Part shown: positions 51,961 through 64,000 of the stretch, one piece after another
How the letters are laid out: each line of letters starts with the position of its first letter
How positions within the stretch are numbered: position 1 is the stretch's first letter
NCBI GenBank assembly: GCA_947629675.1
Contig: CANREM010000003.1
Location: 62,001 to 126,000, forward strand
Direction: 5' to 3'
Length of the DNA: 64,000 bases
From: an uncultured Clostridia bacterium
GTDB taxonomy: Bacteria > Bacillota > Clostridia > Christensenellales > Borkfalkiaceae
Program-made: the position numbers and the translations under genes
The notes under the pieces: generated by a model
The model's input: the letters and a program-made list of their open reading frames with translations, nothing else
What the model was told of the DNA's origin: nothing
The model's database searches: none

Positions 51961-54015
51961 ATGAGCAAGAGGGAAACTATGGAGCTGGCGATCGGCGGCG
52001 AAATGCTCCCGATGCATCCTCTCCTGAATTTTAAGTATCAGGGCGAAAGATATGCGGCATTTACGCCCGCCGACAGCGCGGACCCTTCCGAGGAGGGAGA
52101 GGTCGCGCTTACGCATGTAACGACGAAAATTGAGTCATCCAATGGCTCCGTCGATTTATCTGCAATAAAGAGCAATGACAATTTAGAGCGCAAGCTTTTA
52201 CTCATATTGTCCACATGCATCATTTACTTGGTCTTGGCACTTTGTATTTCGTTCACAACGCTCGTCTTTGTGCTATGGCCCAAATTCTGGTGGATCGGAA
52301 TGATGTTGATTATCATCGGTGTGGTCGCTCTTATCATGCTTTTTCCGCTCCACATTGCTTATGCACAACTTCGAAAACAGCGAAGGTTGCAAGGACTGCA
52401 AAAAGTAACTTGTTATGAAGTTGTCCCCTGTGAAGGAAATGACCCGATCTTTGCCGAGTTTGAGATTCGCTATCAAATTCTTGAAAAGCTCTCAAAGAAT
52501 CAGCAGCTCTCGATGTTGGAGTATCAACGTCTGAATTTCCGGCAGAAATTTTTATATAAGTTGAAAATGTTCTTCCGTGGCATCCCGAGGTGGTTTGCCC
52601 GCAAGTTCAAACGGCTTGGGCTTCGCCTCAAAGCCTTCGGCATCTCCATATGGGAGAATATCAAGGACATCGGGAGGACCTTCAAAAACGGGAGTTGGAA
52701 GACGAGAGTTTCCTACTTATTCATGGGGTTTGGCAATCTCTCGCACAGGCAGGTATTACGCGGAATTCTCTTTTTCCTCTTCGAGGCCAGTTTCGTTGTA
52801 TTTATGGTCCTCTCAGGTGGGCATTGGCTTGGAAAATTCGGCACATTGGGCACGACGGCATACGAAACCGTCTATGATCCGGAACTCGGTGAGGCGACAA
52901 TACGCGTTGATAATTCTTTCAAGATCCTGCTCTACGGACTTCTCACGATCTTCTTTATCATCGCCTTCATCTATACCTGGAGATTGAATGTCAAACAGTG
53001 CCGCATCCTCGATGAGATCACGGCAACCGGCAAGCGGGTGAAGTCGAGCAAAGAGGATATCCAATCTCTCGCCGACAACGAATTTCACAAGACGCTTTTA
53101 TCCCTCCCCGTACTCGGCATCGTGATGTTCACCGTCCTGCCTATCATCTTCATGATCCTCGTCGGCTTTACAAATTACGATTACCATTACGACGGTTACG
53201 GTAACCTATTCACATGGTGCGGACTCGACAACTTCAACACGTTGTTTGCGTTCGGCTCCAAGCTCTCCCTCGCATTCGGCGAGATCTTGGCTTGGACGCT
53301 CATCTGGGCGGTCGTGGCGACCTTCTCCAACTACTTCCTCGGCATGTTCGTCGCGATGATGATCAACAAGAAGGGGATCAAGATCAAGAAGTTCTGGCGC
53401 ACCATCCTTGTCATGACGATCGCCATCCCGCAATTTATTTCCCTTCTATATGTGAGTAACCTCTTTGCGGAAAACGGTATCGTAAACGCAACGCTCATGC
53501 GCTGGGGATGGATCAAAAATCCCATCCCGTTCTGGGGAAACGGAACGCTCGCCAAGGTCATGGTGCTTGTCATTAATATATGGGTAGGTATCCCGTACCT
53601 CATGCTTATCACGACGGGCATTCTGATGAACATTCCCGCGGATCTCTATGAATCGGCGCAGATCGACGGGGCGAATGCCTTCCAGCAGTTCTGCAAGATC
53701 ACGATGCCGTACATGCTCTTCGTCACGGGGCCATACCTTTTGACAAACTTCGTGTCTAACATCAACAATTTCAACGTCATCTATCTTTTGACGCAGGGTG
53801 GACCGCGGCACTTCGCTTGGGGGGAGGTCGGCGGGTATGTCGCCGGCGATACGACCATCCTCATCACTTGGCTCTTCGGTATCACAACGGGAAGCGAGGC
53901 GTCCTATAAAATGGCCTCCGTCATCGGTACGCTCATCTTCCTCGTTGTCTCCATCATCTCGCTCATCGTCTTTACCATCATGCCTTCCACCAGAAGGGAG
54001 GAGGACTACGCATGA
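51961..54015 (+). CDS. ganP: Sugar ABC permease (GanP/MalF-like) with long N-terminal extension
   Basis: A 684-residue permease. The C-terminal part (about residues 370-684) is a normal MalF-type unit with GFTNYDYHYDGYGNLFTWCG, LFAENGIVNATLMRW and the EAA loop SAQIDGANAFQQFCKITMPY. Before it lie about 190 unusual residues: MELAIGGEMLPMHPLLNFKY plus an acidic stretch, a hint of a DUF1292-like fold, then two membrane spans (LLLILSTCIIYLVLALCISF and WWIGMMLIIIGVVALIMLFP). A basic helical linker with another two spans follows. Typical GanP proteins are near 420-440 residues. Overlaps the next permease by ATGA. Confidence 0.88.
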   Translation: MSKRETMELAIGGEMLPMHPLLNFKYQGERYAAFTPADSADPSEEGEVALTHVTTKIESSNGSVDLSAIKSNDNLERKLLLILSTCIIYLVLALCISFTTLVFVLWPKFWWIGMMLIIIGVVALIMLFPLHIAYAQLRKQRRLQGLQKVTCYEVVPCEGNDPIFAEFEIRYQILEKLSKNQQLSMLEYQRLNFRQKFLYKLKMFFRGIPRWFARKFKRLGLRLKAFGISIWENIKDIGRTFKNGSWKTRVSYLFMGFGNLSHRQVLRGILFFLFEASFVVFMVLSGGHWLGKFGTLGTTAYETVYDPELGEATIRVDNSFKILLYGLLTIFFIIAFIYTWRLNVKQCRILDEITATGKRVKSSKEDIQSLADNEFHKTLLSLPVLGIVMFTVLPIIFMILVGFTNYDYHYDGYGNLFTWCGLDNFNTLFAFGSKLSLAFGEILAWTLIWAVVATFSNYFLGMFVAMMINKKGIKIKKFWRTILVMTIAIPQFISLLYVSNLFAENGIVNATLMRWGWIKNPIPFWGNGTLAKVMVLVINIWVGIPYLMLITTGILMNIPADLYESAQIDGANAFQQFCKITMPYMLFVTGPYLLTNFVSNINNFNVIYLLTQGGPRHFAWGEVGGYVAGDTTILITWLFGITTGSEASYKMASVIGTLIFLVVSIISLIVFTIMPSTRREEDYA

Positions 54016-55049
54016 CGGACAAAATGTTTGAAGTGTTCGAGTTCTATCCGGCATCGGAGGAAAAACCGCAGGAGATGGTCGAGATCGTGACCGGGGAAGA
54101 CACCTTTGAAATTTCGGCCATGCCTGAAGCACCCATTGCAGACATCATCCTTGCGGAGACACCGGAAGTGAATGCCGCAGAGGAGAAAAAGAAGAAGCGC
54201 ATTTCGCAGAGGACGAAAAACAGGATCTCAAACACGATCATCCATATCGCGCTCGCCGTCATGTGCGTCGTGTGGATCTTGCCCTTCATCGGCATCGTGT
54301 TCGAATCCTTCCGCTGTGAGAGCACGGGGGTCGTGGGATACATCCTTCCTAAGCACTGGGGCTTTGACAACTATGTTCGCCTCTTCAAGGAAACGAAGTT
54401 CCCCACATGGTTCGGCAACACCCTGCTGATGGGTGTCGTGACGGCGGTGGTGCAGACCGCTTTCCAGCTCGCCGTCGCATACGTCCTTTCCCGCTTCCGC
54501 TTCAAGGGGAGGAAGTTCCTCATGAATCTCATCCTCGTGTTCGGGATGTTCCCCGGGTTTATGACCCTCATTCTCCTCTACACCTGGATGCACGACTGGC
54601 ATCTGACGGACGCGAACGCGCCCTATGGCCTCATCATTATCTATGTCGCAAGCTCGGGCATGGGGTACTATATCGCGAAGGGCTTCTTCGATACCATCTC
54701 CAAATCGCTCGACGAGGCGGCGCGGGTGGACGGCGCGACGCGCATGCAGATCTTCTTCAAGCTCATTCTGCCGCTCTCCAAGCCCATCGTCATTTACACG
54801 GTCCTCATGGGGTTCATGGGGCCGTGGGGGGACTTCGTCATGGCGTCCTTCATGGCGAACAACGAGACCGGCGGTTATAACGTTGCGGCAGGCCTCCAAT
54901 GGCTCATAGACGAACCTGCAAAAAAGGACATGAACTATACGACCTTCTGCGCGGGCGGCGTCGTGGTGGCATTTCCCATCACGGTCCTGTTCCTCCTGTT
55001 GCAGAAGTATTATGTCGCGGGCGTCACGGGCGGCGCGGTCAAAGGATAA
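54012..55049 (+). CDS. ganQ: Sugar ABC permease (GanQ/MalG-like)
   Basis: A 345-residue permease with about six spans after a 75-residue acidic/basic N-terminal head. The EAA loop is SLDEAARVDGATRMQIFFKL, followed by ILPLSKPIVIYTVLMGFMGP. Its partner is the preceding permease gene; together they form the channel for galacto-oligosaccharides. It is longer at the N-terminus than typical MalG proteins, which start close to the first span. The ATPase gene begins nine bases after the stop. Confidence 0.92.
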   Translation: MTDKMFEVFEFYPASEEKPQEMVEIVTGEDTFEISAMPEAPIADIILAETPEVNAAEEKKKKRISQRTKNRISNTIIHIALAVMCVVWILPFIGIVFESFRCESTGVVGYILPKHWGFDNYVRLFKETKFPTWFGNTLLMGVVTAVVQTAFQLAVAYVLSRFRFKGRKFLMNLILVFGMFPGFMTLILLYTWMHDWHLTDANAPYGLIIIYVASSGMGYYIAKGFFDTISKSLDEAARVDGATRMQIFFKLILPLSKPIVIYTVLMGFMGPWGDFVMASFMANNETGGYNVAAGLQWLIDEPAKKDMNYTTFCAGGVVVAFPITVLFLLLQKYYVAGVTGGAVKG

Positions 55050-55058
55050 GGTGAAACT

Positions 55059-56333
55059 ATGGCAGAAGTTGTATTGGAAAATGTAAAAAAGGTTTACGGC
55101 AAGAACGTCGTTGCCGTACAGAATTTCAACCTCACGATCAAAGACAAGGAATTTGTCGTCTTCGTCGGCCCCTCGGGGTGCGGCAAATCAACGACGCTCC
55201 GCATGATCGCGGGCCTCGAGGACATCAGCGAGGGCACGGTGAAGATCGGGGGCAAGGTCGTCAACGACCTGAAGCCCAAAGACAGGGACGTCTCGATGGT
55301 CTTCCAGAATTATGCTCTCTACCCCAACTACACGATCTTCAAGAATATCGCGTTCCCGCTCACGCTCATGCGCGTGCCCGTAGAAGTACCTGTGACGGAT
55401 AAAGACGGGAATGTGACGGGCGTCAAGATCAAGACCAGAAAGCTGACGAGCGAGGAGATCGCAAACAAAGTTGGCGAAGCTGCAGAGATTCTCGGCATCA
55501 CCGAATATCTCGGGCGGCGTCCGAGGGAACTTTCGGGCGGGCAGAAACAGCGCGTCGCGATCGGCAGGGCGATGGTGAAAGATGCCGCCGTGTTCCTTCT
55601 CGACGAACCTCTTTCCAACCTCGATGCGAAGCTCCGCGCCCAGATGCGTTCCGAACTCATCGAATTGAGGAAGAGGATCAATACGACCTTCATCTACGTC
55701 ACCCACGACCAGGTGGAGGCAATGACGCTCGCCGACCGCATCGTCATCATGAAGGACGGCGTGATCCAGCAGGTGGGAACGCCCACGGAGCTGTTTGATA
55801 TGCCCGCCAATCTCTTTGTCGGCGAGTTCATCGGCTCTCCCAAGATGAACACCTTTAAGACCCGTCTCGAGCGGGACGAAGAAGGGTATTTCGTCGAACT
55901 TTGCGGCGTGAAAAAACGCATCGGCGGGGTGCGCGGCGAGGCACTTGCGGCAAAGAACATCGAGCCGCAGGACGTCGTCATGGGCGTCCGCCCCGAACAT
56001 ATCACGCTCTCCAACCACGAGGACAAGGAGGCCATCCCCTGTGTCATCGGCGTGAGGGAACTCATGGGCAGTTCGCTCCATCTCCACGTCAAGACGGCTA
56101 CAGAGGAGGAACTCATTGTCTGTGTGCCCACCGCGCCCTTCACGCTCGCACAGATCGCAAAGCTCGTGACGGGCACGCGGATCTATCTCACATTCGATAG
56201 TAAATCAACGCATTTCTTCAACGAAGAGACGAAGGTCAATCTTCTCGTCGAAGATGCCCCCGTCGCTTCTTCCGAGGAGAAGCAGCAAAAACAGGAAGAA
56301 CAGCCGCACAAGAAGTGGCGCAGAATTTCATGA
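55059..56333 (+). CDS. msmX: Sugar ABC transporter ATPase (MsmX/UgpC type)
   Basis: A 424-residue ATPase. Walker A GPSGCGKSTTLRMIAGLE, Q-loop VFQNYALYPNYTIFKNIAF, signature ELSGGQKQRVAIGRAMVKDA, Walker B VFLLDEPLSNLDAKLR and switch YVTHDQVEAMTLADRIVIM. A 25-residue insert with VTDKDGNVTGVKIKTRKLT lies in the helical subdomain. The C-terminal TOBE/OB region matches UgpC/MsmX, with a Glu/Gln/Lys-rich end. MsmX ATPases often serve several sugar importers, but here the gene is inside the operon. The symbol reflects type rather than proven identity. Confidence 0.92.
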   Translation: MAEVVLENVKKVYGKNVVAVQNFNLTIKDKEFVVFVGPSGCGKSTTLRMIAGLEDISEGTVKIGGKVVNDLKPKDRDVSMVFQNYALYPNYTIFKNIAFPLTLMRVPVEVPVTDKDGNVTGVKIKTRKLTSEEIANKVGEAAEILGITEYLGRRPRELSGGQKQRVAIGRAMVKDAAVFLLDEPLSNLDAKLRAQMRSELIELRKRINTTFIYVTHDQVEAMTLADRIVIMKDGVIQQVGTPTELFDMPANLFVGEFIGSPKMNTFKTRLERDEEGYFVELCGVKKRIGGVRGEALAAKNIEPQDVVMGVRPEHITLSNHEDKEAIPCVIGVRELMGSSLHLHVKTATEEELIVCVPTAPFTLAQIAKLVTGTRIYLTFDSKSTHFFNEETKVNLLVEDAPVASSEEKQQKQEEQPHKKWRRIS

Positions 56334-56349
56334 GGTGTAGGAGGAAACC

Positions 56350-58992
56350 ATGAAAAAGCTGAAAAATACACTTATATCCATCATTCTCGCGTTTTGTATG
56401 CTCCTGCCGCTTGCGGCATGCGGAGGGGACAACAATGCGGCCGATATCGAGAGCGTTGAGCTTGACCGTGCAGAAATCAACCTCAACGTCGGCGAGCAAA
56501 TTACGCTCACCTATATCGTCTTCCCGCAGGGAGCCAGCACGAAGGACACGAGATGGCTCTCGTCCGATCCGAGCGTAGCGACTGTCCAAGATGGCGTCGT
56601 CACGGCTTTGAAAGAGGGTTCAGCCCTGATCAGACTCAGCATCGGCGGCAAATCATCGCAATGCAGGATTAACGTCATAGACCCGTCGCTCATCGGCGGT
56701 GCGGCAACAGGCGTTTCGCTCGACAAACACAGCCTTAAACTCATGCAGATTGGGGCAACGGGCAAATTGGAAGCGACGGTAGAACCCGATGACGCTTCGC
56801 AGGCCGTAACATGGTCGTCATCTAACACGGGTATCGCAAAGGTTGAGAATGGTACCGTTACGGCCGTTTCTTCAGGACGTTGCGTAATAACCGTCAGGAC
56901 GGCGAACAACTATTTCGACAGTTGCGTCGTGGAGGTTGAAGGAGAAGTCGCAGATCCTGAACTTTATGTGGGGCAGATCACCTCTCTGGCGGGCCGTGAA
57001 GCGGGCAGTGAGCATCCCTTCATCATGGCGATGGACTCCTCAGAACTTCTCTCTGTCGAGGCGGCTCGTAAAGAAAGCGGCCTTACCTTCAAGGATTTTG
57101 ACGGTAATGAAGCGGATGTTTTGCAAGTATTGAAGGACAACGGCATCACGGACATCCGTATCCGCGTCTGGAACGACCCTTACGCCGATGCCGCAAAACA
57201 GCAGGGCTATGGCGCGGGAAATTGCGATGTCGAAAACGCCGTAGAGCTTTCCAAACGTTGTGAAAAAGTGGGGCTTGGTGTCATCATCGACTTCCATTAC
57301 AGCGACTTCTGGGCAGACCCCGCCAAGCAGAAGGCTCCCAAGGATTGGGAGATCTATGCGAACAATATCGACGGGAAAGTCACCGCGCTGAAAAAGTTTA
57401 CGCAGGATGCTCTCGAAGAGATCAAGGGGACGAACGTCAAGATCACGATGGTGCAGGTCGGCAACGAGACGACGGGCGGCATGGCAGGCGAAACTGATTG
57501 GACGAAGATCTGCAAGCTCATGAATGCGGGTGCCGAGGCGGTGCGCGAAGTGACGGATACCGTCGCAAACGGCGGCGCAAAGGTCGCAGTGCATTTCACC
57601 AACGCCGGTTCCAACAATTTCATGGAGAAGGCGAGGACGCTCTCCGACAACCATGTCGATTACGACGTATTCGGAAGTTCCTGGTATCCCTATTACACTT
57701 CGGCAGGATCTCTTTCGGGACTTGTCAGCCAGTTCAGATCCATCCATGACGAATTCCATAAGGAAGTCATGGTGCTCGAGACGGGCTATGCGTGGACGAG
57801 AGATGATTTCGACGGCTGCGGCAATACCGCCCTCGAAGAGACGACACAGCCTTTGACCGTGCAGGGCATGTCGAATTCAGTGCGCGAAGTCATCGAAGCG
57901 GTGGCCAATCTCGGCGATTATGGTCTCGGCGTCTCCTATTGGGGCGGCACGTGGGTCGCAGCGAGCATGAGCACGGATGGCAATACCAACCGCGCGCTCT
58001 GCCTCGAACACGGCTGCGGTTGGGCGACCTCCTATGCGCACAACTATGACAGTTCCGCACCCTCGCCGGTGGGCACTGCCAAAACACCTACGAGCGGCGG
58101 CACGATGGTGGATAACAACGCCTTCTTCCGCTCCGACGGCTCGCCCATCGAGGCACTCAAAGTGTTCAAGTATGTTTGGGAAGAAGGGCACACATCCGAC
58201 CTTCACGCCGACTATCTGGAAGATCAAGAACTTTATTATACGGTCGGACAGGGGACGATTGAACTTCCCAAGACCGTGAATGTTGTTCTCAACAATGGTT
58301 CGGCGATGGAAACGGATGTTGTGTGGGCGATCGAAAAAGCCGATCTCGAAGAGTATATCAACGAAGTCGGCACGTATCAGGTAGAGGGCACGACCAATTT
58401 CGGCGGCACTTGTTACTGCTATGTATGGGTCACGAATGTCAACCTCCTCACGGGCGGCAGCTTTGAGGAGGATCAGGGCATCGCGAAGTCCTACGGCTCG
58501 CAGAACGGCGGCGCGATCTACCTCAGCAATATGGGGGACTGGGCGGCCACCTACAATAACAGTGGCAGCGGCAACCTGCAACTTTACGTCAGCAACGAAT
58601 CGCAAAACGCCGTCATGGGAACGAACAGCTTCCACTTCTGGGATAGCGGAAAGGTAGACTTCAAGCTCTTCCAGATGGTCGATATGTCCAAGATCACCGA
58701 AAACGGTAAGTACACTTGCAGCTTCGAACTGCAGGGCGATCAGGGCGAGAAGATCGACGTCCACGCCTATATCACAGTGACGTATAAAGACGGAAGCACG
58801 CAGACCTTCGAAGGCAGCAAGCTGACCCAGCTCGACGGCTGGACGCATTGGCAGCGCACGCAGGCGAGCGTCACGATCGAGGATATCGCCAACATCGCGA
58901 GCATCGAAGTCGGCATCTCCGTCTACTCCGATCCCGTAGGAGAGGGGCCTTGGGGGAACATTGATAACGCACAATTCTACTTCGAAGGCTAA
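56350..58992 (+). CDS. Surface GH53 endo-galactanase lipoprotein with Big_2 and CBM61-like domains
   Basis: An 880-residue lipoprotein (LAAC lipobox, C24). Residues about 33-110 and 118-198 are two Big_2 immunoglobulin-like domains (VTALKEGSALIRLSIGG and VTWSSSNTGIAKVENGTVTA). The GH53 catalytic domain spans about 203-610: RIRVWNDPYADAAKQQGYGA, VIIDFHYSDFWADPAKQ, acid/base E373 in VQVGNETTGGMAG and nucleophile E477 in MVLETGYAWTRDD. A Big_4-like domain (VNVVLNNGSAMETDVVWAIE) follows, and the last 170 residues (LLTGGSFEEDQGIAK... DIANIASIEVGIS) look like a CBM61 galactan-binding module, the usual companion of GH53. It cuts galactan on the cell surface for the transporter encoded just upstream. 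Confidence 0.93.
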   Translation: MKKLKNTLISIILAFCMLLPLAACGGDNNAADIESVELDRAEINLNVGEQITLTYIVFPQGASTKDTRWLSSDPSVATVQDGVVTALKEGSALIRLSIGGKSSQCRINVIDPSLIGGAATGVSLDKHSLKLMQIGATGKLEATVEPDDASQAVTWSSSNTGIAKVENGTVTAVSSGRCVITVRTANNYFDSCVVEVEGEVADPELYVGQITSLAGREAGSEHPFIMAMDSSELLSVEAARKESGLTFKDFDGNEADVLQVLKDNGITDIRIRVWNDPYADAAKQQGYGAGNCDVENAVELSKRCEKVGLGVIIDFHYSDFWADPAKQKAPKDWEIYANNIDGKVTALKKFTQDALEEIKGTNVKITMVQVGNETTGGMAGETDWTKICKLMNAGAEAVREVTDTVANGGAKVAVHFTNAGSNNFMEKARTLSDNHVDYDVFGSSWYPYYTSAGSLSGLVSQFRSIHDEFHKEVMVLETGYAWTRDDFDGCGNTALEETTQPLTVQGMSNSVREVIEAVANLGDYGLGVSYWGGTWVAASMSTDGNTNRALCLEHGCGWATSYAHNYDSSAPSPVGTAKTPTSGGTMVDNNAFFRSDGSPIEALKVFKYVWEEGHTSDLHADYLEDQELYYTVGQGTIELPKTVNVVLNNGSAMETDVVWAIEKADLEEYINEVGTYQVEGTTNFGGTCYCYVWVTNVNLLTGGSFEEDQGIAKSYGSQNGGAIYLSNMGDWAATYNNSGSGNLQLYVSNESQNAVMGTNSFHFWDSGKVDFKLFQMVDMSKITENGKYTCSFELQGDQGEKIDVHAYITVTYKDGSTQTFEGSKLTQLDGWTHWQRTQASVTIEDIANIASIEVGISVYSDPVGEGPWGNIDNAQFYFEG

Positions 58993-59040
58993 AACGGATA
59001 TTATATCCGAGATAATAAGTACGTGACAATAAGTTTGGAA

Positions 59041-59062
59041 GGAGGTAGCTCCGATGGTTTGA
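59041..59062 (+). promoter_or_regulatory. Mini-ORF (SD-AUG-GUU-stop) in leader, copy A
   Basis: GGAGG, eight bases, ATG GTT TGA (59054-59062). TCCGATGG around the start is shared with copies B and C. A complete translation start is thus followed by a stop one codon later. Confidence 0.5.
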
Positions 59063-59072
59063 CTTCATTGAT

Positions 59073-59183
59073 ATGGGGGGAAATTTAGCAAAATCTGCAT
59101 CCCGGGTTCGAGATGCGAACTCACCGAAAGGGAAGGGGGATCGCGCCCTTAACGGCGAAATAATAATAGGAGTAATTTTATGA
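59073..59183 (+). CDS. Possible 36-codon upstream ORF coupled to the lipoprotein gene
   Basis: ATG 59073 opens a 36-codon frame (starting MGGNLAKSASRVRDANSPK) whose TGA at 59181 overlaps the downstream ATG at 59180 (ATGA). It has no clear Shine-Dalgarno of its own other than the GGAGG of mini-ORF A 28 bases earlier. Composition is basic and it includes a 7-bp hairpin (59104-59122). Coding status is uncertain; the overlap would allow translational coupling. Confidence 0.3.
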   Translation: MGGNLAKSASRVRDANSPKGKGDRALNGEIIIGVIL

Positions 59184-61708
59184 AAAGGACCAAGCACTAT
59201 TTGATTGCATTCCTGTGTTTGCTCTCGGTTTTAGCCCTTAGTTTATCGCTTGCAGCATGCGGGATTGTCAAGAAGGAAAAATTTTCTGTAACAATTGCCG
59301 ACTATGATACGACTAATGGTAAAGTAACTCTTTCTCCCGAAGCAGAGGACGGCAAGTATGAGAAGGACACCGAGATCACCGTGACCGTCGAAGCATACGA
59401 AGGCTACGCGCTCGACACCTTCACGCTCAGTACGGATGCGAATGCCGCGCTTGATGGCGAAGGCAAGTTCGTATTCAATGTAATTGCCGATACGACGATT
59501 ACCGTTACCTTTAAGGCAACAACTGTTCCCGTAGAGAGCGTCACTTTGGGGTCAAATACCCTTGAACTTGAAGTGGGCGGAAGGACAGAAGATGCCACCG
59601 CAACGCTCGTTGCAAATGTGCAGCCCGATAACGCAACGGATAAGACCGTGACTTGGACGTCAAGCAATCCCGCCGTTGCCACCGTGGAAGGCGGCAATGT
59701 GACGGCTCTGACAGCAGGCGAGACGACGATCACCGCGACGGCAGGCGGCAAGAGCGCGACCTGCACCGTGACCGTTACCCAACATACCCATACGATTGAT
59801 ACCGAGAAGGGTTTGCAGAATGACGAAACATCCCACTGGCATGTCTGCAAGACCTGTGGCGAGAAGATGGATGAGGCTACGCACAGCCTCAAGATCAACG
59901 AGGCAAAGACCGCGTTCAAGTGCGAGCAATGCGAATACGAAGTCGCTCACACGCACGACACCGAACTCCGTAACACGGGTGACGATGGCCACAAGACAGT
60001 TTGCAAGACCGAAGGTTGCGGCTACGAAAGTGCAGTCACCGCGCACGCCGCGGCAGAAGGCGCTCAGTGGAAGCAGGACACCGAGAACAATCAGCACTAT
60101 AAGGAATGTGTCTGCGGTGCACACGTCGAAGTCGCTTCGCACACCGCCAAAGACGATGAGTGGCTCAAAAACGAAGATAACACCAAGCATTATCAACTCT
60201 GCATTTGCGGAGAGAAGGTAAACGAAGCCGAGCATACCGCGAAGGACGATCAATGGCATCAAGATGCTGAAAAGGGCGAGCACTACAAAGAATGCGTCTG
60301 CGGTGAACACGTCGAAGTCGCTTCGCATACCGCGAAGGACGATCAATGGCATCAAGATGCTGAAAAGGGCGAGCACTACAAAGAGTGCGTCTGCGGTGAA
60401 CACGTCGAAGTTGCCGCGCACTATAACGAAGATGATGAATATGTAAGCGATGGCGCTACGGGGCATCACCAAGTATGCACGGCGTGCGAGGCGTCCTTCA
60501 ATCAGGGTCAACATGAGCTTGATAGCGAATACACGTCTGAGCAGGGAGGGCATTATCAGGAATGCTTAGACTGCGATTATCATACAGACCTTGTGCCTCA
60601 TACAAATCCCAACCCAGGCGGGAAATATACATGGTATAAAGATGAGGACAATGGCTATTATCATGGGTTCGATTGCTCTACCTGCGAATATGCAGTGCGG
60701 ATTGATCACTCGAATTCATACAAACAGGATTATACTCAAGATGATGGTGAGTATAGATACTGCGATGAATGTGAGTATCGCGAGAAGATAAAGAATCATT
60801 CCCTTAATAATATCACTTCGAACAGCAACGGCACACACAATGTGGCATGTTCAAATCTTCTGTGCACTTACAAAAAGGAAAACGTGACTTGCTCTATGAC
60901 TTGGACCACACTCGAAGATGCCGTCTCCGGTCATAAAGGGGAATGCTCCGAGTGCCATTATACGGTTGAGCGTGAAGATCATGTTTTTAACACTGACAAA
61001 GAATGTTCTAAGTGCGGGTACAAAGATACCGGTGAACATACATGCAAGGACGAACCTGTAAATGGATTCTATGATGGCTTGTGCGATACTTGCGGCAAAA
61101 TTATTGATAATTTCTGGACTGTTTCGTCGGCGGGTCAAATAACTGCCTATGGCGGAACGCAGGCGAAGGTAATTGTTCCGGCGCAATACGAATCGTCAAA
61201 ATCAATTGTGAGCTTTACGAAAGATGTATTTGGCGATAATGCGACAGTAACCGATGTCATTATCTCCAATGGGGTTTCTTTCCCCCAAAGTTACGGTTTC
61301 GCTAATTGTACAAATTTAGAATCCGTTGTAATTTTGAATGAGAGCGCGAAGAGCCTTCCTTCCCTGTTTTTTAGTGGTTGCGCTAAATTGAAATCAATTG
61401 TTTTGCCGAGCAGCATTACGGAAATTAAAGTTGCAGCGTTTGGACCAGACTCGCGAAACTCCAATGGCTTTGCTGAATCCTTAACAATTTATTATTTGGG
61501 ACAGGCAAATTCATTAAAGAAAACGACTTCTAACACAACGTACTCAAAAGCAAATGAGTTTCTGACCAATGCAACGGTACTTAGCTACAATAAAGATGGT
61601 CAAGCGTCAGCAAAAAGTACAGAATGGCATTGGAAAACGACAGATGAATCCGGTAAAGTTATTCCCGAAGGTATTCTTCCGGAGGCATGGAAACAAGTCG
61701 TGTCTTAA
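59180..61708 (+). CDS. Surface lipoprotein with His/Cys (zinc-ribbon-like) repeats and LRR_5
   Basis: An 842-residue lipoprotein; LAAC lipobox, C27. Residues about 35-112 form an InlB-type repeat (EKDTEITVTVEAYEGYALDT). A Big_2 domain follows (VTWTSSNPAVATVEGGNVTA). Residues about 198-630 are an array of short units with spaced histidines and Cys pairs, such as HWHVCKTCGEKMDEATH, HYKECVCGAHVEVASH, HYQLCICGEKVNEAEH, HHQVCTACEASFNQGQH and HYQECLDCDYHTDLVPH; two of these are near-identical 93-base repeats. The end (about 660-842) has LRR_5-like segments (VVILNESAKSLPSLFFSGCA). The array resembles zinc-binding modules but on the cell surface. TAATAGGAGTAATTTT is the ribosome site. Ligand unknown. 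Confidence 0.82.
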   Translation: MKRTKHYLIAFLCLLSVLALSLSLAACGIVKKEKFSVTIADYDTTNGKVTLSPEAEDGKYEKDTEITVTVEAYEGYALDTFTLSTDANAALDGEGKFVFNVIADTTITVTFKATTVPVESVTLGSNTLELEVGGRTEDATATLVANVQPDNATDKTVTWTSSNPAVATVEGGNVTALTAGETTITATAGGKSATCTVTVTQHTHTIDTEKGLQNDETSHWHVCKTCGEKMDEATHSLKINEAKTAFKCEQCEYEVAHTHDTELRNTGDDGHKTVCKTEGCGYESAVTAHAAAEGAQWKQDTENNQHYKECVCGAHVEVASHTAKDDEWLKNEDNTKHYQLCICGEKVNEAEHTAKDDQWHQDAEKGEHYKECVCGEHVEVASHTAKDDQWHQDAEKGEHYKECVCGEHVEVAAHYNEDDEYVSDGATGHHQVCTACEASFNQGQHELDSEYTSEQGGHYQECLDCDYHTDLVPHTNPNPGGKYTWYKDEDNGYYHGFDCSTCEYAVRIDHSNSYKQDYTQDDGEYRYCDECEYREKIKNHSLNNITSNSNGTHNVACSNLLCTYKKENVTCSMTWTTLEDAVSGHKGECSECHYTVEREDHVFNTDKECSKCGYKDTGEHTCKDEPVNGFYDGLCDTCGKIIDNFWTVSSAGQITAYGGTQAKVIVPAQYESSKSIVSFTKDVFGDNATVTDVIISNGVSFPQSYGFANCTNLESVVILNESAKSLPSLFFSGCAKLKSIVLPSSITEIKVAAFGPDSRNSNGFAESLTIYYLGQANSLKKTTSNTTYSKANEFLTNATVLSYNKDGQASAKSTEWHWKTTDESGKVIPEGILPEAWKQVVS
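60233..60418 (+). repeat. Two near-identical 93-bp tandem repeats
   Basis: Units 60233-60325 and 60326-60418 differ at only a few positions and each encode a 31-residue His/Cys unit. Their near identity suggests recent duplication within the gene. Confidence 0.9.
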
Positions 61709-61745
61709 TGACATGACTGTCTGATTGGGCAGAGTCAAATAATTC

Positions 61746-61770
61746 AAGGGAGATGAGTCCAATGGTTTAG
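61746..61770 (+). promoter_or_regulatory. Mini-ORF (SD-AUG-GUU-stop) in leader, copy B
   Basis: AAGGGAG, nine bases, ATG GTT TAG (61762-61770), with TCCAATGG at the start. Same layout as copy A. Confidence 0.5.
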
Positions 61771-61783
61771 GTTAATATTGTCC

Positions 61784-61957
61784 GAGGCAAAATGGTATAC
61801 TCAATGCCTCAATCCCGCTTCATGCGAAGCGGCAAGAAAATTCTACACAAGGGGGTGGTTCCGATGGAATAATTCACATGAAGCAATGTTACCCGGCACG
61901 AAAGTGCCATAGCCTGGGACCTTCAGTCTCAGGAGCACATCAGTCTGCAAAGCAGAC
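61784..61957 (+). promoter_or_regulatory. Structured leader of the Big_2 protein gene
   Basis: Four hairpins in line: GAGGCA/TGCCTC (61784-61810), CCGCTTC-ATGC-GAAGCGG (61815-61832), GGCAC-GAAA-GTGCC (61895-61908, GNRA loop) and GTCTGC-AAA-GCAGAC (61943-61957). Mini-ORF C (AAGGGGG, eight bases, ATG GAA TAA at 61864-61872) lies between the second and third. No known riboswitch consensus fits. Confidence 0.5.
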
Positions 61958-61986
61958 AAATCTAAATTTATATGAGGTGAATAACC

Positions 61987-64000
61987 ATGAAAAAGGCAAT
62001 TAACAAGACAAATTTGATTGTTGCGCTTCTCTTTGCGTTTATCGCTTGCCTCACCGGTGCAACAATGTTGTCACTCAGTGCAAACGCGCAGGAAGAACAG
62101 CCTAAATCGACTGTTGAATTCACTTCGTACACATCCGTCTTAGGAATTGGCGAAGAATTTGAATTCGCCGCGTTGGTCACGAACGAAGACGACACCACAA
62201 GTACGGAAGTTGAGTGGTCTTCGAGCAATTACGATGTCTTGGATATTGATGAAACCGGTCTTGCGCTTGCTCTTGATGCGGGGAATGCTACCATTACAGC
62301 TACGGCTCCGGATGGTGCATTTGCTTCGATCGATGTCCTCGTTTCGGATGAAGCTATTCGCGTTAACAGCATCGAGGTCTATCCCGAGGTTCTTGAGCTT
62401 GGTGTCGGTTGGACGACGAGAATGAGCTATACGATCCTCCCCGACGATGCCTATGAGCAGAGAGCAACCTGGGCTTCGGACGATCCTTCCGTGATCTCGA
62501 TCGACCAAAATGGTAATGTCGAAGCTATGAAAGCGGGTACGGCTACAATCACCGTTACCAGTATCGACAACCAAAAGACGGCGACCTGCACAGTTGTGGT
62601 CTATGAAGATCTTGTAGAGGCGACGCTTACCCCCGATACGCTTGTGACAACGATCGGACAAGTTGAGAACAACACGATGGAACTTATGGCTCCGGATGAA
62701 GTGACCTTCGTTGATGAGAGCTATCATTGGTATTCCATGGACGATTCGATCGCTTCAATCGATCCCAATGCGGATAAAATCGGTACGATTTACTCCTGGA
62801 ATTTTGGCACGACAACGATTTATGCGGTCGCACACGGTTCCGACGGGAACGTCTATGCCGCTATGGGTACCGTCCATGTAACGGCAAGCTATTTCTACAT
62901 CACAGGTCTTTATTCCGACCTCGATGATCCCGAAGGAGATCCTTGGGTGACCTACAACACGGCAGAAGCCGCAGAAGCCGCAGGCGTGCTCCTTGGGCAG
63001 TCCGCGACCGAGCCTTACGTCTACTCCATCACCCGCGACTTCTGGGCAAACGACTACTTCCAGATCATCCACGGCGGAATCGATGATGATTGGACGACGA
63101 AGATCACTTCCACCTCCTTCAATGAAGAAGGATCGACGATGGCATATGTCGCGAACACTGCTGATTCGTTCGGCGTTTCAGACCTTGGTACATACACCGT
63201 GACGCTTGACCTCAGGAATGGCCGCGCGCAGGTTACAATCGAAATGGTTGAGCTCAGCGTAACGTCCTTTGATCTCTCGATCGGTGAAAGCTCCAAATCC
63301 TATCTCCAGTATGTCTGTGCGGAAGAGGGTGCGGAAGAAGATGCTGCCCGCAAGATGGTGATCAATGCTTATACCATCCCCGAAACTGCGGTGATCAATC
63401 CCGCCGACGTGATCATCTCGACCGATCCGAGCGTGTCCCAGTACGTGACGATCGAACACGAAGTAATCACAACACAACTTCCCGATCAGGAGCTCCCCGA
63501 GTATTCCATTCAGATCACGCTGACGCTTCTTCCTGCTTATGAAGAAGTAAAAGACATGACCACTTTCCGACTGATCGTTGAGATCGATAATGGATTTACG
63601 ACCCTCGAAAATCCCACGGATAACATCACCATTACGATCCTTCCCAATGGCGTGGTTTATGCTCCTGTAGAAACTGTCACTTTCACAAATCCGGAAGGAT
63701 ATCTCGTGAATGTGAATAATGGGGCGACCGAATGGATCTCCTCGACGCCTATCGAAGCGGTCGTGAATACAGACGCCTCTGTGCAGGGTGTTGTCTATTC
63801 CGAACTTTCCGATCACATCTACATCGAGTATCGGGACATCGATCCGAGCGAAGAAGTGGTAGACCTTAGGCCGTTCGTTCATGCGGACGCGCTTGGCACC
63901 TATAAGATTTATGCAACGTCTCTCGGTGCGAACAAAGATGGCGAAACCGTCACGGCAGAGACCACGGTGCTTGTGACGTCGCTCATCGAAACTGAATCGG
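61987..64000 (+). CDS. Secreted Big_2-domain protein (3' truncated by window edge)
   Basis: At least 671 residues with no stop before the window ends. A signal peptide (residues about 1-35, VALLFAFIACLTGATMLSLS then ANAQ) has no lipobox, so signal peptidase I cleavage after ANA is likely. Big_2-type domains follow: VEWSSSNYDVLDIDETGLAL, then ATWASDDPSVISIDQNGNVE with AMKAGTATITVTSIDNQKTA, and a third (YHWYSMDDSIASIDPNADKI). Later segments look like further beta-sandwich modules (FYITGLYSDLDDPEGDPW and YEEVKDMTTFRLIVEIDNGF). ATGAGGTGAATAACC is the ribosome site. Likely a large adhesin or a carbohydrate-binding surface protein; its C-terminus is not visible. Confidence 0.85.
   Translation, partial: MKKAINKTNLIVALLFAFIACLTGATMLSLSANAQEEQPKSTVEFTSYTSVLGIGEEFEFAALVTNEDDTTSTEVEWSSSNYDVLDIDETGLALALDAGNATITATAPDGAFASIDVLVSDEAIRVNSIEVYPEVLELGVGWTTRMSYTILPDDAYEQRATWASDDPSVISIDQNGNVEAMKAGTATITVTSIDNQKTATCTVVVYEDLVEATLTPDTLVTTIGQVENNTMELMAPDEVTFVDESYHWYSMDDSIASIDPNADKIGTIYSWNFGTTTIYAVAHGSDGNVYAAMGTVHVTASYFYITGLYSDLDDPEGDPWVTYNTAEAAEAAGVLLGQSATEPYVYSITRDFWANDYFQIIHGGIDDDWTTKITSTSFNEEGSTMAYVANTADSFGVSDLGTYTVTLDLRNGRAQVTIEMVELSVTSFDLSIGESSKSYLQYVCAEEGAEEDAARKMVINAYTIPETAVINPADVIISTDPSVSQYVTIEHEVITTQLPDQELPEYSIQITLTLLPAYEEVKDMTTFRLIVEIDNGFTTLENPTDNITITILPNGVVYAPVETVTFTNPEGYLVNVNNGATEWISSTPIEAVVNTDASVQGVVYSELSDHIYIEYRDIDPSEEVVDLRPFVHADALGTYKIYATSLGANKDGETVTAETTVLVTSLIETES

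Follow-up and report, generated by a model that had tools for sequence, protein, structure and literature searches.

Two-codon open reading frames behind strong Shine-Dalgarno sequences in the leaders of a Clostridia surface-protein gene cluster: candidate ribosome-docking minigenes

The two intergenic leaders of a gene cluster from an uncultured Clostridia bacterium contain the same small layout three times: a purine-rich Shine-Dalgarno (SD) sequence, a well-spaced ATG within the motif TCCRATGG, a single sense codon, and a stop codon. The three occurrences are designated elements 1, A, and B. They lie in a stretch of 64,000 nucleotides (nt), called the window throughout (G000:C3:62001-126000), from a genome of 1.57 Mb (1,567,280 bases in 37 contigs, 91% complete). 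An earlier, sequence-only reading of the window had claimed such sites at 59054, 61762, and 61864, and all three are found there on the + strand. It had also claimed that the sites share one layout, and the 22-nt pattern GGNNNTNNNTCCRATGGNNTRR agrees, occurring without mismatch in this genome at exactly these three places. Four more places (seven in total) match with one mismatch, and a reversed-pattern control gives none.

Element 1 lies between genes 1 and 2 of the cluster, and elements A and B both lie between genes 2 and 3; gene 4 (1375 amino acids) comes next after gene 3, beyond the window. Gene order and strand suggest that the ABC transporter, the GH53 enzyme, and the surface proteins would be transcribed together as one polycistronic mRNA, in what is probably a sugar-use or polysaccharide-use operon of gut Clostridia. 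Table 1 gives the coordinates.

Table 1. Features of the cluster and its leaders, in window coordinates (ORF, open reading frame; 16S duplex, predicted pairing with the 16S rRNA 3' end).
Feature	Coordinates	Strand	Basis or remark
Two ABC permeases	51961-54015, 54012-55049	+	Pfam BPD_transp_1 twice; upstream part of cluster 51961..56333
MalK-type ATPase	55059-56333	+	Pfam ABC_tran, OB_MalK, TOBE_2
Gene 1: GH53 (endo-galactanase family) protein with Big_2 domains	56350..58992	+	Glyco_hydro_53 E 7e-93, Big_2
Element 1 ribosome site, AAGGAGGTAGCTCCG	59039..59053	+	TCC at 59050-59052; 16S duplex -17.9 kcal/mol
Element 1 two-codon ORF, ATG GTT TGA	59054..59062	+	61 nt past gene 1 stop
Gene 2: surface-type protein, Big_2 and BspA-type LRR_5 domains, CxxC repeats	59180..61708	+	domain matches, translation
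Element A ribosome site, AAGGGAGATGAGTCCA / AGGGAGATGAGTCCA	61747..61761	+	16S duplex -15.1 kcal/mol
Element A two-codon ORF, ATG GTT TAG	61762..61770	+	53 nt past gene 2 stop
Element B ribosome site, AAGGGGGTGGTTCCG	61849..61863	+	16S duplex -20.0 kcal/mol
Element B two-codon ORF, ATG GAA TAA	61864..61872	+	sequence
Three-hairpin block, element B to gene 3	61883..61960	+	arms 61895-61899/61904-61908, 61913-61920/61926-61933, 61943-61948/61952-61957
Gene 3: Big_2-domain protein, runs beyond window end	61987..64000	+	domain matches

We compared 13 leaders from ten genomes or contigs. Five of these lie between genes 1 and 2 (the own genome, G204, G084, G273, and G175), seven lie between genes 2 and 3 (the own genome, G277, G009, L065, G084, G257, and G363), and the thirteenth is from G273, in which gene 4 directly follows gene 2. 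One-codon units are present in ten of the 13 leaders, for a total of 13 elements. Their middle codons are GTT, GAA, GGC, GTA, ACT, and GGA, and their stops are TAA (five), TAG (six), and TGA (two). At the position of element 1, the GTT TGA of the window corresponds to ATG GGC TAA in G204 and to ATG GTA TAA in G084, where the layout is the same and the context (TAATTATGG) is different. Element A reads GTT TAG in both the own genome and G273, ACT TGA in G277, and GAA TAA in G084. Element B reads GAA TAA in the own genome, GAA TAG in G277, G009, L065, and G257, and GGA TAA in G273. Stop codons exchanged for one another at a single place are what selection on termination predicts. In a column profile of the 13 elements, which were picked for having a stop (and so without element A of G009 and the G363 element), conservation of the stop columns follows from that choice, but the fall in base conservation immediately past the stop does not. 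Judged from these comparisons, the start-codon-stop layout is probably under selection: in most relatives the start and stop persist although the surrounding sequence drifts. The sequence-only reading had turned on conservation of the start-stop pair in close relatives, and that expectation survived, with conservation incomplete. A role for the encoded peptide was rejected because the sense codon varies. Nor does the arrangement resemble a leader-peptide attenuator: there is only the single varying sense codon, and no terminator-like site was found on the + strand in 56200-62100.

Considering every ATG in the 13 leaders that does not start a gene, a one-codon ORF follows 13 of the 21 with a strong SD and 2 of the 58 with a weak one (13/19 and 2/60 at a threshold of -10). 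The corresponding Fisher p of 6e-8 ignores relatedness and is too small because the sequences come from related metagenome-assembled genomes (MAGs), in which the evolutionary events are fewer than the counts. The other eight strong-SD ATGs, some of which share their SD with a listed unit, open frames of 22 codons (a second ATG in G277), 13 codons (element A of G009), no codon (L065, and a second ATG in G084), 4 codons (A position of G257), and 11 and 2 codons (both in G363), plus one frame that stays open to the leader end (genes 1-2 of G273). As a control, none of seven leaders between genes 3 and 4 of these operons has an upstream ATG with a strong SD; the leader before gene 4 in G273 does have one, and is counted among the 13.

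Background frequencies were taken from a genome sample of 400 kb (20 stretches of 20 kb out of the 1,567,280 bases), in which real gene starts are included. One-codon ORFs account there for 27 of 1,499 strong-SD ATGs (1.8%) at dG <= -9, 9 of 593 at <= -11, and 2 of 180 at <= -13, and there is therefore no general excess of such ORFs in the organism. Genome-wide use of the element was considered and rejected: in 464 kb, one-codon ORFs follow 21 of 1,350 ATGs with a 5-base SD and 7 of 383 with a 6-base SD. Under a simpler SD rule of this sort (at least five contiguous bases of AAGGAGGTGATC), element 1 alone counts as strong; the other two sites are variants rich in G, whose pairing depends on G-U pairs. 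TCCRATGG by itself is not rare, with 8 occurrences in the window and 5.87 expected. Could the units then be short ORFs that happen to fall behind purine-rich stretches in a few related genomes? The background just given supplies such ORFs, the two weak-SD cases occur in these very leaders, and the MAGs are not independent of one another. It is nevertheless very improbable that chance produced the pattern, given 13 of 21 against 2 of 58, a stop that is retained while its type and the middle codon change, and an element 1 in G084 that has the same layout in another context.

Searches beyond the known loci returned little else. The pattern GGRGRTRRNTCCRATGG has nine matches in 201 genomes of the family and one in its reversed control; three are the elements of the own genome and one is the orthologue in G009. 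Four of the remaining five resemble gene starts or coding sequence by eye, and the fifth, on contig L013 of G108, is followed by ATG GAA TAC, with no stop. That site belongs to another genus and lies near base 1500 of the contig, where GGAGGTGAATCCGATGG precedes the ATG and, by eye, a terminator-like hairpin stands before a further gene; it is thus a similar ribosome site without the early stop. An element-B pattern with up to three mismatches matched six of 103 genomes of the genus (control, one), namely the own genome, G009, G277, G084, and two open gene starts. A DNA search of 41 genomes with the own leader (61700-61995) matched nothing except itself.

The strength of the ribosome sites is an extreme feature of the elements. 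The 16S rRNA 3' end of the genus, GGATCACCTCCTTTT, could be read in three of 103 genus genomes, the own and the other leader-bearing genomes not being among the three; a stricter pattern for this end matched in 0 of the 103. Predicted pairing with this end reaches -15 kcal/mol or lower in 11 of 15 elements (the 13 one-codon elements plus element A of G009 and that of G363), compared with 7 of 420 gene-start proxies from the genome sample. Most of the genes that follow these leaders have weaker SDs of their own than the minigenes do. The five bases before the ATG, which include the conserved TCC, add a mean of 3.7 kcal/mol; for random 5-mers from the leaders the gain is 1.1 (2.4 in the best of 400 sets), and for the same bases at 52 strong-SD gene starts it is 0.8. 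The TCC can be read, on this modeling, as carrying the complementarity on into the GGA of GGATCACCTCC, with a mean 16S duplex of -17.4 versus -14.8 for random sets (0 of 400 sets as low). It could also form a small local hairpin with the SD, and here the real mean of -2.4 compares with -0.5 (again 0 of 400 sets as low). The sequence fits longer 16S pairing and SD hairpin equally well.

Strong complementarity to the 16S 3' end within a long leader, as predicted for these elements, is also a trait of the stabilizing SD (STAB-SD) known from cry3A, where the SD acts as a 5' mRNA stabilizer (PMC4113751). It could be that the SD alone matters, and that AUG and stop are tolerated by-products. This would suit the extreme SD strength, the AAGGAGG that is kept without a nearby ATG between genes 1 and 2 in G273, and the SD of element B in G084, which is kept although its ATG is lost. 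A by-product, however, would hardly show the one-codon unit at 13 of 21 strong-SD ATGs while the codons change, and we regard this explanation as decidedly improbable.

The leader between element B and gene 3 contains a block of three hairpins. We aligned it over six leaders (the own genome, G277, G009, L065, G084, and G257, leaving out G273 and G363; G257 offers two candidates for the third hairpin, of which the first was used). Changes on both sides are found in 9 of the 18 pairs (shuffled mean 4.8, reached by 4 of 500 shuffles), and 93.5% of cells pair (0 of 500 shuffles). Covariation scores 0.493, where shuffles give 0.285 +/- 0.040 (0 of 500 as high) and sliding gives 0.07-0.15. Further pair types number 14, which does not exceed the shuffled alignments, 457 of 500 of which reach it. 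A covariance model of the block (R1), searched against the 103 genus genomes with 46 candidates scored per genome, matched strongly at five of its training loci alone, including the own locus (G000:C3:123883-123960), and weakly at eight more (E 0.0045-0.092), one of which is the G273 leader. The leader before gene 2 is predicted to fold as well. As a separate observation, a GC-rich hairpin, with no minigene, stands in the leader of gene 4 in the own genome (L047, before base 1629) and in related genomes (L048, L049, L051, L065, L090; in G204 it reads CTGCGCCGGCAGAAATGCCGGCGCAG).

A leader that switches, in the manner of a riboswitch or other sensor, would open and close the minigene's ribosome site by its own folding, and a ribosome on the minigene would in turn change the folding of the hairpin block. 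Several predictions agree with this. The consensus fold of the six element-B leaders joins the SD of B, in four pairs, to a CUC/CCC word just before the first hairpin; the local hairpin of TCC on the SD is lower in energy than in all random sets; the three-hairpin block covaries; and masking ribosome footprints alters the predicted fold of both own leaders. Yet none of the four pairs between the SD and the downstream word has changed on both sides. Covariation, which the sequence-only reading had put forward as a check, thus appears in the hairpin block past B and not in the pairing of B's SD. The TCC is explained equally well by longer 16S pairing, there is the lack of a + strand terminator-like site noted above, and the block has no strong match elsewhere in the genus. 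Rfam 15 gives 0 matches at gathering score in the 64-kb window and, at a relaxed threshold, one match of chance level (E 6.6) in 58900-62050. A switchable leader is accordingly quite unlikely. A likeness of TCCGATGG and neighboring words to c-di-GMP-I, T-box, and c-di-AMP riboswitches was considered and dropped for want of an Rfam match.

We propose, at about even chances, that the three sites are cis-acting minigenes on which ribosomes dock and so protect or partition a polycistronic mRNA. What is observed is the layout, its conservation in most leaders, exceptional predicted pairing with 16S rRNA, covarying hairpins past element B, and profile matches above cut-off in the own genome to RNase Y (TIGR03319) and to TIGR00649, which we take to be the family of RNase J. 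An unusually strong SD placed after an upstream gene would capture a ribosome, either one just released from that gene or one from the free pool. The captured ribosome would initiate at the AUG, take one step, and terminate. With a stop two codons in, it would be held on a fixed footprint, clear of the hairpins and of the start of the next gene. Parked there, or rapidly replaced by reloading, it would shield a stretch of RNA, RNase J or RNase Y being the likeliest nuclease. The presence of genes for RNase Y and TIGR00649 makes it possible that a processed downstream segment is guarded from 5'-3' decay. Such protection may stabilize the surface-protein segments of the mRNA and set their level, so that the surface-protein part would be expressed differently from the transporter part. 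That the sites park ribosomes in cis was already suggested by the sequence-only reading, and as a reading it remains a good one, given that relatives retain the unit while its middle codon and stop change.

A number of observations weigh against the docking proposal, in addition to the relatedness of the sequences. The unit is absent in three of 13 leaders: that between genes 1 and 2 of G273, where the SD lacks a nearby ATG; that of G175, which has no element; and that of G363, from another genus, which has ATG GGG ATA TAA at the B position, one codon longer. Single elements have also departed from the layout. Element A of G009 begins ATG CTT TAT and reads on for 13 codons; at the A position of G257, the last part of gene 2 contains an SD and ATG that open a 4-codon run, with no one-codon unit; L065 has there a badly spaced ATG TAA and no one-codon unit; and element B of G084 has lost its ATG. 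In G204, genes 2 and 3 overlap and leave no leader between them. By one measure, the SD of the own element A (-10.7) is no better than that of gene 3 itself (-11.5), and strong SDs are not peculiar to the minigenes, since six of the seven gene 4 starts of these operons range from -11.3 to -17.8. Weak promoter-like matches (9/12) on the + strand, at 61772-61801 and 61844-61873, fall between or on elements A and B. STAB-SDs require neither AUG nor stop, so pure protection leaves the retention of both unexplained. Finally, toxicity in E. coli can result from two-codon ORFs that have a strong SD (PMC8708949).

Ribosomes may instead be relayed. Those finishing the upstream gene, or loading at the strong SD, would begin anew at the minigene, stop immediately, and be handed over the folded hairpins to the surface gene's SD, so that translation is tuned rather than mRNA decay. 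In G084, the SD of element A overlaps the gene 2 stop codon (ATG 5 nt past the stop), the SD at the same place in L065, where the one-codon unit is missing, overlaps it as well, and the ATG of element B in G257 is 16 nt past the gene 2 stop. These positions suit a relay, as do the weaker SDs of most of the genes and the hairpins, which shorten the path to the gene. According to PMC8708949, whether the effect in LEE1 was positive or negative depended on the distance from minigene to gene, and this distance was also of importance in axe-txe. Here, however, the one-codon unit nearest to the gene is 119 to 237 nt from it, a long and variable distance compared with 15 nt in axe-txe (PMC8708949). 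The first unit in each own leader stands well past the upstream stop (Table 1), and the distances from unit to gene keep no fixed relation of reading frame. We consider a relay rather unlikely.

Orthologues of gene 3 are present in G009, G084, G277, G257, G204, G363, and L065. At E <= 1e-50 they are found in seven of 398 genomes of the family (the own genome counted; G363 from another genus), and the C-terminal part of the GH53 protein is matched in five of 103 genus genomes; the cluster is therefore patchy in its distribution. Four orthologous loci are MAG contigs in a named collection, three labeled as uncultured Clostridia and one as uncultured Atopobiaceae, with isolate names that start with Lapin, which suggests a rabbit host. 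The contig assigned to Atopobiaceae, L065, has the same gene order and element B, and either its bin may be wrongly assigned or the operon may have moved. Within gene 2, the stretch 60230-60420 holds tandem repeats that are almost identical and include CxxC-like words (HTAKDDQWHQDAEKGEHYKECVCGEHVEVA appears two times). A promoter-like match on the - strand of the first leader (59029-59000; TTGTCA, 18 nt, TATAAT; 11/12) is directed back across the last part of the GH53 gene, and an antisense transcript is possible there.

Two-codon leader minigenes that act in cis have been published, and the statement of the sequence-only reading that no system with this arrangement is described has to be given up. 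In mg2 of the axe-txe locus (Enterococcus faecium plasmid pRUM), ATG ACT TAA raises txe expression, possibly through mRNA protection; changes of its start or stop codon affect its action, and AUG or stop mutants with an intact SD lose the effect (PMC8708949). The same paper cites a two-codon minigene of LEE1/ler, dipeptide ORFs before Bacillus subtilis ycbK, and a six-codon mini-ORF of LEE4/espADB whose strong SD protects mRNA from RNase E. STAB-SDs, too, were already known (PMC4113751). The elements described here have all the parts of such regulatory minigenes, namely an ATG, one sense codon, a stop, and an SD in the leader of another gene. To these our analysis adds conservation of the start-stop unit beyond chance, as counted above for the strong-SD and weak-SD ATGs, with the unit absent from three leaders. 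Among titles and abstract openings of the open-licence literature, we found no work on several conserved two-codon ORFs per operon or on selection on their stop, which is weak evidence of absence.

In the literature examined, regulatory two-codon ORFs have been known from single loci, by mutation; here there are several per operon, and the stop kept through codon changes is evolutionary evidence that the immediate start and stop are themselves selected. The model, compact and testable, shows a way in which docking of a ribosome might partition an mRNA that carries several genes. Sites of this kind will be overlooked or misinterpreted by gene finders. More tentatively, and with doubt outweighing confidence, we suggest a repeated operon module made of an SD whose pairing with 16S rRNA extends nearly as far as the start codon, then a two-codon ORF and a conserved hairpin block. 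Recurring within one operon, it would park ribosomes and so determine the stoichiometry of the genes for polysaccharide use. It might be the first case found in which comparing genomes, with the middle codon varying and each of the three stops in use, indicates that a two-codon ORF of a bacterium is itself under selection. Phage lambda bar minigenes are likewise two-codon ORFs with an SD, known for peptidyl-tRNA drop-off and tRNA depletion and not from the leaders of surface genes.

Each of the closest systems shares some of these parts. Like the elements here, mg2 of axe-txe combines two codons and a functional SD in the leader of another gene and acts in cis; unlike them, it lies much closer to its gene, belongs to a toxin-antitoxin context, and has no hairpin block described in the available part of PMC8708949. 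The LEE1/ler minigene also has two codons, lies in a leader, and affects the downstream gene, but LEE1 and LEE4 are enterobacterial systems with RNase E, and the LEE4 ORF has six codons (both as cited in PMC8708949). The Gram-positive cry3A STAB-SD is an SD-like sequence at -129 in a long leader, close to the 5' end, and is proposed to block RNase J1, but the site directs no translation initiation and has no start-stop unit (PMC4113751). Cryo-EM of Staphylococcus aureus shows SD pairing extended towards the start codon, as is predicted here; it is used there at ordinary gene starts, and neither 'start-stop' nor 'two codons' appears as a term in the text of PMC13009471. The cip-cel operon of Clostridium cellulolyticum, an example of selective RNA processing and stabilization, is again a polysaccharide-use operon of Clostridia, with conserved intergenic stem-loops that set segment levels (PMC4423207). 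Conserved intergenic stem-loops are found here too, in an operon suggested by gene order; in cip-cel, protection is mainly at 3' ends, and the term 'Shine-Dalgarno' does not appear in the text of PMC4423207. The elements of this cluster are probably a variation on the minigenes known from a few other bacteria, joined here with pairing of the STAB-SD kind and with a hairpin module between genes.

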